This document shows, piece by piece, positions 27,710 through 33,389 of a stretch of DNA of 64,000 bases; the first letter of the stretch is position 1; each line of letters begins with the position of its first letter. The notes beneath the pieces are model-generated. The model saw only the letters and a program-made list of their open reading frames with translations, was not told the origin of the DNA and made no database searches. The stretch covers positions 1 through 64,000 of the forward strand of contig DAHUXZ010000001.1 of the NCBI GenBank assembly GCA_027315455.1, in the 5' to 3' direction. The stretch comes from Thermoplasmata archaeon. GTDB taxonomy: Archaea > Thermoplasmatota > Thermoplasmata > Lutacidiplasmatales > UBA184. Position numbers and translations under genes: made by a program.

Positions 27710-28114
27710 TTAATCGTCCCTTCGGGTCCGCGCCGCGCCCGTCTCACGCGACAGCGCCGGGCGCGAACCGGACGGGGCCCGGCCCCCCAGCCATTCCTTC
27801 CCCTTGCGGAGGGTGCCGAAGGTACGACGGGTGGCGACGCGGATCCCCTCCCCCGAGGGACCCGACAGGGGGCCGTTCCAGGCCGTGCGGGCGGCGATCA
27901 TCGTCCGGTTCGTGACCCGCACGAGCACCCGGGGACCCGAGAACCGGATCAGCTTGAGATCGGCCGGGGCTCGGATCGCCTCCGCGAGCGAGCGGGCGAG
28001 CTCCCTTTCGAGCCCGCGCGGGGAAAAGGTGGGGACCCCCACCACCTCGACGCCGAGGTAGCGGGGGCGGGGGGAAGGGTTACCGGACGAGGTCGATGAC
28101 TTCCTCGGACTCAC
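27710..28114 (-). CDS. Probable RNase P protein component 2 (Pop5-like)
   Basis: RPRYLGVEVVG...LIRFSGPRVLVRVTNRTMIAARTAWNG...IRVATRRTFGTLRKGKEWL resembles the Pop5 pattern. Start ambiguous, 35-nt overlap with ftsZ. Confidence 0.55.
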   Translation of the reverse strand: MSPRKSSTSSGNPSPRPRYLGVEVVGVPTFSPRGLERELARSLAEAIRAPADLKLIRFSGPRVLVRVTNRTMIAARTAWNGPLSGPSGEGIRVATRRTFGTLRKGKEWLGGRAPSGSRPALSRETGAARTRRDD

Positions 28115-29210
28115 CGGCGGCGTAGCCTCCCTTCTGGCCGAGCAGGCTCGTCGCCCGGACCCCGGTGATGATGAGCAGCACCTTGATGGTGTTCTCGAGG
28201 TCCGGGGTGTTCTCGACCGAGCAGCCCCAGATGATCCGGGCCCGCTTGGAGATCTTGCCGCCGACGAGCGCCGCGGCCTTCTCGGCCTCGGAGACGGTCA
28301 TCGTCGGACCGCCGATCACGCGGACGAGGGCGCCGGTGGCGTCCTTGAGCTCGACGCTCCCCAGGAGCGGGGAGGTCAGCGCCTCGGTGACCGCCTCGGT
28401 GACGCGGTCCGTCGCGCTCTCGCTCTCGCCGAGGCCGATGAGCGCGACCCCGCCGTCCTTCATGACGGTCAGGATGTCGGCGTAATCGAGGTTCACGAGG
28501 CCGGGCTTCGTCACGATCTCGGTGATCCCCTTGATCCCCGTCATGAGGACCGCGTCGGCGAGCTTGAACGCCGAGTCGAGGGGCATCCGCGGGACGAGCT
28601 CGAGGAGCCGGTCGTTCTGGATGACGATGGTGGTGTCGCAGACCCGGCGCAGGCGCTCCAGGCCGTCGCGGGCCTGCTCCATGCGCGCAGCCCCCTCGCC
28701 GGCGAACGGCAGGGTGACGACGCCCATCGTGAGCGCACCGGCCTCCTTGGCGAGCCGGGCGACGAGGTGGGCGGAACCGGTACCGGTCCCTCCGCCCATC
28801 CCCGCCGTGACGAAGACGATGTGCGCGCCATTGAGGAACGCGCGCAGCTCCTCCTCGTTCTCGCGGGCCGCCTCCTCCCCGATCTCGGGGCGGGCTCCCG
28901 CGCCGAGGCCCTTCGTCGCGCGGCGTCCGATGAGGATCTTCCGTGGGGCGTGGACCGTCAGGAGGTGCTTAGCGTCCGTGTTGATGGCGCACATCTCCGC
29001 GCCCTGGATGCCCTCCTCGACGCAGCGGTTGATCGTGTTCGAGCCGCCGCCGCCGCACCCGACGATGCGGATGTTGACCTTCAGCGTCTCTGCCAGTTTC
29101 GCGAGCTCGGCGTCGTCCGCGTTGACGTACGTCGGTGCGGCCTTCTTCTCCTCCACCAGGGACTGGTTCTCCTGGTGCTTGGCAATCGCTTCCTGGATGA
29201 TGGATTTCAT
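28080..29210 (-). CDS. ftsZ: Cell division GTPase FtsZ
   Basis: IVGCGGGGSNTINRC, GMGGGTGTGSAHLVARLAKE, AINTDAKHL. Confidence 0.97.
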   Translation of the reverse strand: MKSIIQEAIAKHQENQSLVEEKKAAPTYVNADDAELAKLAETLKVNIRIVGCGGGGSNTINRCVEEGIQGAEMCAINTDAKHLLTVHAPRKILIGRRATKGLGAGARPEIGEEAARENEEELRAFLNGAHIVFVTAGMGGGTGTGSAHLVARLAKEAGALTMGVVTLPFAGEGAARMEQARDGLERLRRVCDTTIVIQNDRLLELVPRMPLDSAFKLADAVLMTGIKGITEIVTKPGLVNLDYADILTVMKDGGVALIGLGESESATDRVTEAVTEALTSPLLGSVELKDATGALVRVIGGPTMTVSEAEKAAALVGGKISKRARIIWGCSVENTPDLENTIKVLLIITGVRATSLLGQKGGYAAGESEEVIDLVR

Positions 29211-29538
29211 CGATTCCTTCTCCGCTACGTTTGTCGGACGAGCGTCATACGCTCTGGCAGGAGCAATCCCGGGGATTCCTACTTAAACGTTGGCTCACAG
29301 GGGAAGTCGTCACTAGCGGACCGGCCGTCGCTAGCCGAGGCGAGAGCGGGGGAGCCTCGGCAGGGGGGAATGTGACCTTGGATACGGAGGCGAACCCCAC
29401 GGGGTCCCGCCGTTCCCTCTCCGGCCGGCGCCGCTCGCCCCCGCGCTGAGTCTCGAGCCCCGCGGCGGCCCGGTCGGGGCCCCGGCTCACCGACCCCGGG
29501 GCCATGGCCCCCGCGAATGGCGAGGAGGGCAGCGAGAG

Positions 29539-29545
29539 TTTATCC
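29539..29545 (+). promoter_or_regulatory. TATA-like element TTTATCC upstream of polC
   Basis: Centre 26 nt before GTG 29568. Confidence 0.55.
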
Positions 29546-29567
29546 TTGGACCCGGACGTGTCGGGCC

Positions 29568-32500
29568 GTGGAATCGTATTTCCGCGCGATCGAATCCGAG
29601 GTCGAGCGGGCGTACGAGATCGCCGGTCGCGCCCGGGCGGAAGGCCTCGACCCGGAGCTCACGCCCGAGGTGCCGCGCGCCCAGGACATGGCGATGCGCG
29701 TCGAGAAGCTTCTCGGGCACCTCCACCTCGAAGGGATCTCGCGCGAGATCCGGGAACTCTGCGGTCGCCTCCCCCGGGAGGAGGTCGCCCTCACGATGGC
29801 CCGGCGGATCGTGGCCGATCCGGCCCGGGGGTCGAACGTCGAGGCGCGGCTCGATGCGGCGCTCCGCGTCGGCCTCGCGATCTTAACGGAGGGGATCCTG
29901 GTCGCCCCGCTCGAGGGGCTGGCCGAGGTCCACCTCCGGGACGGGCGGACCGGCGGCCAGTACGTGGAGCTGTACTACGCCGGACCGATCCGTGCCGCGG
30001 GCGGAACGGCCCAGGCCCTGAGCGTTCTGCTCGCCGACATCGTCCGGCGGGATCTCGGGCTGGAGGCGTACCGACCCGACGAGGCGGAGGTCGGCCGGTA
30101 CAAGGAGGAGATCCCGCTCTACAAACACCTCCAGCATCTGCAGTACGTGCCCTCGGCCGAGGAGATCGAGCTCGTCGCTCGGAGCGTTCCGGTCTGCATC
30201 TCGGGGGAGGCCACGGAAGGGGACGCGGAGGTGAGCGCCTTTCGCAACCTCCTCCGGGTCAACACCAACGGGATCCGCGGGGGCGCCTGCCTCGTCATCG
30301 CCGAGGGCCTCTGCCAGAAGGCCGCGAAGCTGCGCAAGGTCGTCGACAAGCTCGGCATCCCCGGCTGGGAGTTCCTCGAGCGCCTGGGACGCCACAAGGC
30401 GGCCGATGCCGAGGACGGCCACGCGCCGAAGTATCTGGCCGAGGCGGTCGGAGGTCGGCCGGTGCTCGCCTACCCGCACCGGCCCGGCGGGTTCCGCCTC
30501 GTCTACGGCCGAGCGCGGACGGCGGGCCTCGCCTCGTGCGCGGTGAACCCGGCCACGATGATCCTGTTGCGGAACTTCGTCGCGGTGGGCACCCAGGTCA
30601 AGCTGGAATATCCCGGCAAGGCGACGGCGATGGCCCTGTGCGATGCCGTCGAGGGCCCGATCGTCGAGCTCGACGATGGAACGCTCACCGCGGTGCACGA
30701 CGCCGACCGCGCCCGGACCGTCCTGCCCCGCGTCCGCCGGCTCGTCGACCTCGGCGAGCTGCTGGTCCCGTTCGGAGAGTTCCTCGAGAACAACCGGGCG
30801 CTCGTCCCCGGCGCCTACTCCCTCGACTGGCACCTCGAGGAGCTCCGCGAGCAGGGCGTGGTCCCCGGCCCGGGGTCCGCGACGCCGTCCTACGCCGGCG
30901 CGATCGAGGAGTCGCGGCGCCTAGCCGTGCCGCTTCACCCGCGCTTCCTCCTTTTCTGGCACGACCTCACCTCGGCCGAGATCCGCCGCCTGGGCGAGTT
31001 CGTCGAGGGACTCGGACGGGTCGCCGATGGCCACCTCGTGGTGCCGTGGGATGCGGAGTATCGGGAACTCCTCGTTCGTCTGGGATTCCTCCACGCCCCG
31101 GGCTCGGACGGTCGGCTCGTCGGCGAGGCCGACGTGTCGGCGGCCCTTCTGGGAGGGCTTGGCCTCGATGTCGTCGACGGCCGAATCGTCCGGCGCGAGC
31201 CGCTCGACCCGACCGCCGACGACCCGCTCACCTACGTGAGCCGTCTCGCGGGGGTGCCGATCCGAGCGCGGGCTCCCTCCCGGATCGGGGCCCGGGTCGG
31301 CCGGCCGGAGAAGGCCCGCCAACGGCGGATGAGCCCGAACGTCCACGCCCTCTTCCCGGTCGGGGAGGCCGGCGGGACCCATCGCTCCGTGTCGGAGGCC
31401 GCTCGGCGGACGATGCGCACGGGCGTCGCGGTGCCGCTCGGGCTGCGGGAGTGTCCGGCCTGCCACCGATCCACGGTCTGGTTGCGGTGCGGCTGCGGGT
31501 CCCACACCGAGCCGACGGGCCGGGTCGTCGCCGAGCCGCTGCCCGTCGCGCGGCTCTGGGCCGACGCCGTCGGCCGGCTCGGGCTCCGCCGCGTTCCCGA
31601 GGTCAAGGGCGTCAAGGGGCTCACCTCTCCGGGGAAGGTCCCGGAGATGCTCGAGAAGGGGATCCTCCGGGCGGCGAACGGTCTCTCGGTCTACCAGGAC
31701 GGGACCGCGCGCTTCGATCTCACCGACATGCCGCTCACGCACTTCCGGCCGCGGGAGATCGGCCTCGCCGTGGAGGCCGCCCACCACCTCGGCTATACCA
31801 CCGACTGGAGCGGGGAGCCGCTCACGGACCCCGAGCAGCTCGTCGAGCTGCGGCCCCAGGACCTCATCGTGGCGACGGCCTGCGGCGAGTACCTCCTGCG
31901 CCTCGCCCAGTTCGTCGATGCCGAGCTCGTGCGCCTGTACAATCTCGAGCCGTTCTATCGGGCCGTCCGCATCGAGGACCTGATCGGCCACATCGTCGTC
32001 GCGCTCGCCCCCCACACCTCGGGCGGGGTGGCCGGGCGGGTCATCGGCTACACGTCGGCCGAGGCGTGCTTCGCCCATCCGGTCTTCCACGCGGCGAAGC
32101 GACGGAACTGCGATGGGGACGAGGACTCGGTGACGCTCCTTCTGGACACGCTGCTCAACTTCTCGCGGTCGTACCTCCCGCAGAACCGCGGGGCGCTGAT
32201 GGACAAGCCGCTCGTGCTGACGACGCGGCTCGATGCGACGGAGGTCGACAAGGAGGCGCACAACGTCGACGTGGCCGCGCGCTACCCGCTCGCGTTCTAC
32301 CGGGCCGCGGCCGCCGGCCGCCCGGCGAAGGAGGTCGAGGCCCTCGTGCCGACCCTGGGCCGTCGCCTCACGCGCCCGTCACCCCTGGAAGGGTTCGCGT
32401 TCACGCACGACACCACCGACATCGCCGGCGGCCCGGTCCGTTCGGCGTACCGCGAGGCCGGCTCGATGGCCCGGGGCGTCGAGCAGTCGCTCACCCTCAC

Positions 32501-32909
32501 CGCACAGATCCGCGCCGTGGACGTCGCCGATGCGGTGGGGCTCGTCCTCAACACCCACTTCCTGCCGGACCTGATGGGGAACCTCAAGAGCTACGCGACC
32601 CAGCGGTTCCGCTGCAAGACGTGCGGGACCTCGTACCGGCGGCCGCCGCTCGCCGGCCGTTGTACGAAAACGGAGGGGCGCGGCGTGTGCGCGGGCGAGC
32701 TCCTCCCGACGGTGTTCGAGGGGGCGGTGCGCAAGTACCTCGGCCTCTCCCAGCGCCTCGCGTCGACGGAAGGAGTGACGCCGTACCTGCGCCAGCGCAT
32801 CCAGATCCTCGAGACCTCCCTCGCGACCCTCTTCCCGGGAGCGCCGTCGCAGACGACCCTCGAGAGCTACACCGCCGACGAGCCGCCGCCGGCCGACGAC
32901 GCGGCGTAG
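29568..32909 (+). CDS. polC: DNA polymerase D large subunit DP2 (no intein)
   Basis: YVELYYAGPIRAAGGTAQALSVLLADIVR, RVNTNGIRGGACLVIAEGL, HNVDVAARYP, FRCKTCGTSYRRPPLAGRC. Start set to GTG 29568 from promoter spacing. Confidence 0.95.
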   Translation: MESYFRAIESEVERAYEIAGRARAEGLDPELTPEVPRAQDMAMRVEKLLGHLHLEGISREIRELCGRLPREEVALTMARRIVADPARGSNVEARLDAALRVGLAILTEGILVAPLEGLAEVHLRDGRTGGQYVELYYAGPIRAAGGTAQALSVLLADIVRRDLGLEAYRPDEAEVGRYKEEIPLYKHLQHLQYVPSAEEIELVARSVPVCISGEATEGDAEVSAFRNLLRVNTNGIRGGACLVIAEGLCQKAAKLRKVVDKLGIPGWEFLERLGRHKAADAEDGHAPKYLAEAVGGRPVLAYPHRPGGFRLVYGRARTAGLASCAVNPATMILLRNFVAVGTQVKLEYPGKATAMALCDAVEGPIVELDDGTLTAVHDADRARTVLPRVRRLVDLGELLVPFGEFLENNRALVPGAYSLDWHLEELREQGVVPGPGSATPSYAGAIEESRRLAVPLHPRFLLFWHDLTSAEIRRLGEFVEGLGRVADGHLVVPWDAEYRELLVRLGFLHAPGSDGRLVGEADVSAALLGGLGLDVVDGRIVRREPLDPTADDPLTYVSRLAGVPIRARAPSRIGARVGRPEKARQRRMSPNVHALFPVGEAGGTHRSVSEAARRTMRTGVAVPLGLRECPACHRSTVWLRCGCGSHTEPTGRVVAEPLPVARLWADAVGRLGLRRVPEVKGVKGLTSPGKVPEMLEKGILRAANGLSVYQDGTARFDLTDMPLTHFRPREIGLAVEAAHHLGYTTDWSGEPLTDPEQLVELRPQDLIVATACGEYLLRLAQFVDAELVRLYNLEPFYRAVRIEDLIGHIVVALAPHTSGGVAGRVIGYTSAEACFAHPVFHAAKRRNCDGDEDSVTLLLDTLLNFSRSYLPQNRGALMDKPLVLTTRLDATEVDKEAHNVDVAARYPLAFYRAAAAGRPAKEVEALVPTLGRRLTRPSPLEGFAFTHDTTDIAGGPVRSAYREAGSMARGVEQSLTLTAQIRAVDVADAVGLVLNTHFLPDLMGNLKSYATQRFRCKTCGTSYRRPPLAGRCTKTEGRGVCAGELLPTVFEGAVRKYLGLSQRLASTEGVTPYLRQRIQILETSLATLFPGAPSQTTLESYTADEPPPADDAA

Positions 32910-32963
32910 GCAGAGAACGCTGGCATAACGGCCAAATACCGCGAGGGGGCTCGGCCCGGTTGC

Positions 32964-33067
32964 GGGCTTGTGGGGTAGTTTGGACTATCCTTTTGGCCTT
33001 CGAAGCCAAAGACCTGGGTTCGAATCCGCGGGCGCCTGCGCCGGCGGCGAGACTCCCAGCAAGCCCG
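32964..33067 (+). tRNA. tRNA-Arg(UCG), interrupted by a T-loop intron 33025-33053
   Basis: Acceptor GGGCTTG (32964-32970)/CAAGCCC (33060-33066); D-arm GGGT..ATCC; anticodon stem TTGGC/GCCAA with loop CTTCGAA, anticodon TCG 33000-33002; T-stem CTGGG (33014-33018)/CCCAG (33055-33059). After intron removal the T-loop reads TTCGAAT. One extra nt lies between D-stem and anticodon stem. Confidence 0.92.
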
Positions 33068-33077
33068 TCCGCCCGCC

Positions 33078-33389
33078 CTAGCGGAAGTACCCCGGAGCCG
33101 CGGCGGTGTCGGGACGCTTCTCCTCCGCCGGCTTGACCGCCTCGAGGACATCGACGGCGAGCAGCGCATTGATCGGGATCAGTCGGACGAGGCCCCGCTC
33201 CTCCTTGGTCCCTTCCTCGAGCTCGATGGCGAGCGAGTTGTCCCCGCCGACGGAGACGAGCCCGCGGAACAGCCCCGTCGAGAGGAGCGCCTCGTCCCGC
33301 GTTCCGGCCGATCGCACGCGGATCCGGGAACCGGTGGTGAGGGTGATCGTCGGCCGCTTCGCCTCGGCACTGGTCTGCTCGCTCTTCAT
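33078..33389 (-). CDS. Conserved small protein of unknown function (possibly Sm-like beta-barrel)
   Basis: PTITLTTGSRIRVRSAGTRDEALLSTGLFRGLVSVGGDNSLAIELEE...RLIPINALLAVDVLEA. Confidence 0.55.
   Translation of the reverse strand: MKSEQTSAEAKRPTITLTTGSRIRVRSAGTRDEALLSTGLFRGLVSVGGDNSLAIELEEGTKEERGLVRLIPINALLAVDVLEAVKPAEEKRPDTAAAPGYFR

Follow-up and report, generated by a model that had tools for sequence, protein, structure and literature searches.

Results

Organization of the tRNA-Arg(UCG) Locus

The window, i.e., the whole 64-kb stretch of DNA that we analyzed, carries a tRNA-Arg(UCG) gene with a predicted 29-nt intron in its T-loop, located between the gene for the large subunit of DNA polymerase D (DP2) and a convergent ORF. 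It covers positions 1 to 64,000 of a contig of 130 kb in a MAG of 1.98 Mb (94% complete). The host genome is a member of Thermoplasmatota and is close to Ca. Lutacidiplasma, which is placed in the order Lutacidiplasmatales of this phylum (PMC9287336). The features of the locus are as follows, in coordinates of the window:

29517..32909, + strand: DNA polymerase D large subunit DP2, upstream neighbor (Pfam PF03833, PF24844, PF24846)
32932..32939, + strand: TATA-like promoter box CCAAATAC, with AAATA starting 30 nt before the tRNA
32964..33024, + strand: tRNA-Arg(UCG) exon 1, positions 1-59 (from sequence; exon pairwise identity 96.5% among 28 loci)
33000..33002, + strand: anticodon TCG (ARAGORN)
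33019..33022, + strand: 5' strand TTCG of the BHB central helix, exonic T54-G57 (from sequence and covariation)
33023..33025, + strand: 5' bulge AAT, predicted cut AA^T (from sequence; register set by the mature T-loop)
33025..33053, + strand: 29-nt intron at position 59/60 (from sequence and covariance model)
33048..33051, + strand: 3' strand CGAG of the BHB central helix, intronic (the partner of position 57 follows 57 in 123 pre-tRNAs)
33052..33054, + strand: 3' bulge ACT, predicted cut AC^T (from sequence)
33054..33067, + strand: tRNA-Arg(UCG) exon 2, positions 60-73 (from sequence)
33078..33389, − strand: 103-aa ORF, convergent downstream neighbor, without Pfam match

A gene of the FtsZ family (28080-29210, − strand; PF00091 and PF12327) lies close upstream of DP2.

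After A59, the tRNA gene is interrupted for 29 nt, and exon 2 then supplies T60, the T-stem strand CCCAG, the acceptor strand CAAGCCC and the discriminator base G73. In the precursor, an outer helix (CTGGG/CCCAG) and an inner helix (CCGC/GCGG) flank the BHB, the central helix of which pairs 33019-33022 with 33048-33051 and contains one T-G pair. The motif is a perfect 3-nt/4-bp/3-nt BHB of the hBHBh' form, both in the window and in all 28 loci of the genus described below. Removal of the intron in silico resulted in a 7-bp acceptor stem, a 5-bp T-stem and the T-loop TTCGAAT, and ARAGORN recognized the spliced sequence as a full-length tRNA-Arg(tcg). The original prediction, which had placed a tRNA-Arg(UCG) with a 29-nt intron at 59/60 between 32964 and 33067, was thus correct to the base by sequence and by comparison of the 28 loci, and the BHB motif and cut sites that it had assigned hold. 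Its warning that standard finders could cut the gene short was also borne out, since the ARAGORN model of the unspliced gene (32962-33042) ends inside the intron. The Rfam tRNA model scored the unspliced gene at 27.3 bits, which is under the cut-off, and an Rfam scan of the 64-kb window yielded nothing at gathering score. A covariance model of the interrupted T-arm, built from 24 sequences of mixed tRNAs, gave 43.9 bits at this locus, a score to be read with caution because the Arg(UCG) sequence is one of the 24 training rows; the next best score in the 64 kb was 13.7. A split or permuted tRNA was dropped as a candidate, as the exons are collinear and close.

The Intron and Its Surroundings Are Conserved within the Genus

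Searching the GTDB species collection with the interrupted T-arm pattern returned 66 contigs, all of which were labeled Thermoplasmata archaeon or Ca. Lutacidiplasma silvani, save one labeled "bacterium". A comparison of the locus among related genomes, which had been suggested along with the original prediction, agreed with it. In 28 of 28 same-genus loci (those readable whole, own locus included), the intron interrupts the gene at the identical base, with a length of 23-32 nt and all four central pairs kept. Pairwise identity across these loci is 96.5% for the exons and 67% for the introns. The promoter element AAATA is found at -28 to -31 in 28/28 loci. Of 30 loci compared, own locus included, 28 have DP2 upstream and 24 have the convergent 103-aa ORF downstream. 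The product of this ORF is conserved across the genus and has the C-terminal end GYFR.

We consider the insert to be beyond chance, because the complements of the 5-bp T-stem and the 7-bp acceptor stem resume exactly 3' of it, and because position and central pairs are the same in every locus read whole. Most genomes of the genus (37 with the own genome) matched the mature Arg(UCG) sequence, but no match spanned all 75 bases; the best matches stop at query positions 61-65, where the intron begins. The original prediction had named a second, intact tRNA-Arg(UCG) as evidence against it. None was found when we searched the own genome, where the other matches were only to tRNA-Arg(GCG) and tRNA-Arg(CCG).

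The BHB Pairs across T-Loop Introns of Different tRNAs

Across 24 T-loop introns from different tRNAs, the BHB structure had 83.7% of its cells paired, compared to 64.7% after shuffling, and the covariation score was 0.502 (0.207 shuffled, at most 0.275 slid). In 123 pre-tRNAs, G57 is opposite C in 89/89 cases and A57 opposite G or U in 34/34, although these sequences are related and the Fisher value for position 57 overstates the case. Pairs are formed at position 54 in 122, at position 55 in 123 and at position 56 in 122 of the 123 introns; at position 57, 96 show G-C or A-U and 27 show A-G. Of the 34 A57-type introns, all of them in other tRNAs, 27 have A-G as the innermost pair of the central helix, and many A57-type BHBs are therefore imperfect at their inner end. 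We set aside a different register for this type, in which a 3-bp central helix and cleavage 3' of A58 would result in a T-loop of 6 nt.

These data bear on whether the insert is removed. It could stay in the tRNA and enlarge the T-arm, or the gene could end within it (32962-33042), and ARAGORN indeed fits a T-arm-like and an acceptor-like segment inside the intron. However, the T-stem and acceptor strands 3' of the intron are conserved in 28/28 loci, whereas the intron drifts in sequence and length (23-32 nt); the T-loop TTCGAAT is restored only in the spliced form, and changes at position 57 are matched by its partner in the BHB central helix. We therefore regard an unspliced tRNA as very improbable. 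That the insertion killed this copy, with CGA codons being read by another tRNA, might be suspected from its place within the conserved T-loop and from the score below the Rfam cut-off, but a decaying pseudogene is already contradicted by the absence of another Arg(UCG) from the own genome search and of an uninterrupted one from the genus, by exons 96.5% identical over 28 genomes, and by the conserved promoter and neighbors. We propose, with a probability of about 0.93 and on the strength of comparative sequence data, that the locus encodes a functional tRNA-Arg(UCG), and that an archaeal-type BHB intron of 29 nt is spliced out of its precursor between positions 59 and 60.

T-Loop Introns Are Frequent in the Genome and throughout the Family

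Weak tRNA-model matches in the own genome led to further tRNAs with an insert at 59/60. The covariance model identified 16 matches with E ≤ 1.8e-5, followed by a gap to E about 1. We count 16 complete T-loop-intron tRNA genes representing 14 isoacceptors: Arg(UCG), Arg(UCU), Glu(CUC), Asn, Gly(UCC), Ser(GCU), Ser(GGA), Ser(CGA), Ala(GGC), Asp, His and Lys(UUU) as single copies, and Gln(CUG) and Leu(UAG) with two copies each. Adding one truncated Ser(CGA) copy, this amounts to 17 of about 42 own tRNA loci (about 40%), in a census that combined searches with fetched stretches of the genome. Cutting after the second bulge base gave a canonical tRNA in ARAGORN for Arg(UCG) and for most of the other genes; in unspliced form, ARAGORN made no call on 11 of the 16. 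Position 59/60 is the main intron site of this genome, with 16 complete loci versus three anticodon-loop introns seen, in Tyr, Glu(UUC) and Leu(UAA). D-loop inserts are present besides the T-loop intron in Lys(UUU) and Leu(UAG), and Arg(GCG) has a D-loop insert only, of about 33 nt (G000:C16, L029). A D-loop insert was also observed in the tRNA-Arg(UCG) of a genome from another family (G040, L073).

Some tiny contigs of the MAG duplicate tRNA genes found elsewhere in it (C74, 543 bp, and C12; C53, 1359 bp, and C8; C69, 597 bp, and C77). The Gln(CUG) genes on C74 and C12 have identical exons and different introns. These duplicates are strain variants or contamination, and possibly show fast intron drift.

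A relaxed DNA pattern told the genus apart from a reversed control but was noisy elsewhere in the class, and the covariance model was used instead. It yielded 4-16 matches in each of the 37 genus genomes, and the well-assembled relatives G029 and G018 have a T-loop isoacceptor set much like that of the own genome. In a class sample of 250 genomes, all 58 family genomes, from several genera, had 4-16 matches; genomes outside the family had at most five, and 162 had none. Some of the T-loop matches outside the family are real, as in G111, G095 and G041. In G038, from another family of the order, we found T-loop introns in seven tRNAs, mostly short and AT-rich (13-26 nt), using a script on fetched stretches, as the covariance model misses them. 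The Arg(CCG) gene of G041 seemingly has two introns. The original prediction had called such an intron unusual in a euryarchaeal-type genome; this stands when measured against reviews (PMC4090602, PMC4033280), but not in the sense of a single oddity, given 16 genes in this genome and a family-wide distribution.

In two genomes of family f25 (G111, L357; G095, L358), tRNA-Lys(UUU) apparently contains three introns, one each in the D-loop, anticodon loop and T-loop. In family f2 of the order, the tRNA-Arg(UCG) genes of G037 (L064) and G039 (L065) have an anticodon-loop insert of about 200 nt with repeated GGGGGTTACCGTAAGGGGG-like elements; their T-loop is without an intron.

The set of introns could have spread recently by the copying of one intron among tRNA genes, an alternative to an old, fixed set that concerns their origin and not their function. 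For Thermoproteales, it is accepted that introns spread by transposition (PMC4033280, PMC4090602), and the shared position and like 3' end in 14 isoacceptors would fit such a process. Against it, much the same isoacceptor set is found in three members of the genus, G038 has introns in six of the same isoacceptors although in a different family and mostly at much shorter lengths (13-26 nt), and the inner hairpins are without obvious common sequence. We consider recent copying unlikely; the recurring set and its overlap with G038 point to a gain of the T-loop introns before the radiation of the genus.

The Family Endonuclease Resembles the alpha'2 Type

No splicing endonuclease was detected in the own MAG (94% complete) by PF01974 or by a search with an EndA protein from a sister genome. 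The gene pyrE, a neighbor of endA in the inspected genus loci, was also without a match in the own MAG, which makes a missing segment the simplest reading; the absence of endA thus likely reflects a gap in the assembly. Loss of splicing as its cause was rejected, since the enzyme is matched in 31 of 36 genus mates, the other five being less complete assemblies (59-78%).

The genus endonuclease has two PF01974 and two PF02778 stretches in one chain of about 350 aa, inside the range of roughly 290-360 aa expected of alpha'2 enzymes, and in nearly all matching members both PF01974 matches lie in one ORF, about 550 bases apart. Four genomes (G008, G011, G035 and G036) have a third PF01974 match, in some cases on another contig. 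Neither a separate beta subunit nor a three-unit chain was identified in the genus endonuclease. Its closest solved relatives are 5x89, the A. fulgidus structures 1r0v and 2gjw, and M. jannaschii 1a79. The catalytic Y/H/K of the C-terminal repeat is intact in the chains read (FKYGAHF...HARY...VRK, aligned with M. jannaschii 1a79). A CSL or ASL insert carrying a Lys close to the active site, as expected of the broad-specificity (alpha beta)2 and epsilon2 enzymes, is absent, as YGSRVGDRLELSL aligns gapless to the A. fulgidus and M. jannaschii enzymes; the longer A. fulgidus chain 3p1y, which we take to be a CSL-grafted enzyme, marks where an insert of this type would sit. At the level of sequence, the family endonuclease therefore resembles the narrow-specificity alpha'2 type. 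An EndA tree left the relations among families of the order unresolved.

Discussion

Position 59/60 has been listed among tRNA intron sites before, mostly for Crenarchaeota (PMC4090602), and 673 non-canonical introns have been reported in 217 archaeal genomes (PMC8450103). In reviews, tRNA introns at non-canonical sites go together with endonucleases of broad specificity, and Euryarchaeota with alpha4 or alpha2 enzymes are said to have introns nowhere but at the canonical position beside the anticodon (PMC4090602, PMC4033280). Further, diversified intron positions have been tied to loops such as CSL and ASL (PMC12397907). The literature disagrees on homodimers and relaxed motifs: One source counts the alpha'2 enzymes of A. 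fulgidus and T. acidophilum among those of narrow specificity (PMC6379350), whereas in another homodimers were also described to cut BHL-like motifs, with archaeal enzymes recognizing such motifs regardless of the tRNA mature domain (PMC8707768).

The introns described here share the 59/60 site, the BHB, a short hairpin intron and the possibility of several introns per tRNA with those of Crenarchaeota (PMC4090602), but such introns have been reported mainly from Crenarchaeota and Nanoarchaeota with (alpha beta)2 enzymes, in contrast to the alpha'2-like enzyme of these Thermoplasmatota, and 59/60 is the main intron site of the genome studied here. The soil Asgard archaea Atabeyarchaeia and Freyarchaeia (PMC11291895) likewise have many, often non-canonical, tRNA introns. 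In those, 92-95% of tRNA genes are interrupted, while in the soil archaeon studied here, from a different phylum, about 40% carry a T-loop intron at one site. Beyond Crenarchaeota, tRNA introns at non-canonical positions also occur in ARMAN-2 (PMC12397907); the ARMAN epsilon2 endonuclease is a three-unit chain with an ASL, neither of which applies to the family enzyme. A parallel in architecture is provided by the alpha'2 enzymes of A. fulgidus, Thermoplasma acidophilum and Ferroplasma acidarmanus (PMC12397907, PMC6379350, PMC8707768), which share with the Lutacidiplasmatales family enzyme two catalytic-domain repeats per chain, an intact C-terminal Y/H/K and the lack of a CSL or ASL insert. 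Reviews link these enzymes to canonical introns, whereas here an alpha'2-like enzyme would serve many T-loop introns, and most A57-type T-loop introns have an A-G pair in the BHB. The literature searched, which was that available without subscription, contained no report of T-loop introns for Thermoplasmatota; for the Ca. Lutacidiplasma genomes, tRNAscan-SE was run and the main text is without the words "intron" or "splicing" (PMC9287336). The single Arg(UCG) intron is of a known kind; what we call new is the family-wide concentration at 59/60 together with an alpha'2-like enzyme.

We propose that in each 3-nt bulge the tRNA-splicing endonuclease would cut between the second and the third base (AA^T and AC^T) and that the exons would then be joined, presumably by RtcB, to give a normal T-arm. 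The exon half of the central helix would be provided by T54-T55-C56-R57, which occurs in nearly every tRNA. Since this near-invariant TTCR lies two bases 5' of 59/60, the exon half of the motif would always be present, and any hairpin that ends in the complement of TTCR plus two bulge bases and lands at 59/60 would create a splice site in any tRNA. The pairing data suggest that the site would be portable even with an endonuclease that needs a proper BHB, and the introns could thereby be concentrated at one site without a relaxed enzyme. We give even odds to the broader proposal that 59/60 is a universal portable splice site across this Thermoplasmatota family, with cleavage by an alpha'2-like endonuclease that has neither CSL nor ASL.

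As tRNA finders end many of the T-loop-intron genes wrongly or miss them, genomes of this kind may seem poor in tRNAs. The family belongs to a euryarchaeal phylum and has an alpha'2-like enzyme, and its 4-16 T-loop introns in each genome run against the rule given in the reviews. It offers a natural test of whether the shape of the motif, and not its position, limits the endonuclease, and of whether introns can settle easily at 59/60 owing to the invariant T-loop sequence. If 59/60 is indeed a portable site, the placement of introns would be separable from the relaxedness of the motif. The T-loop and elbow would be unable to form until splicing, a dependence that could order end-processing and T-loop modification, and at least a third of the tRNAs would need splicing to form their elbow.
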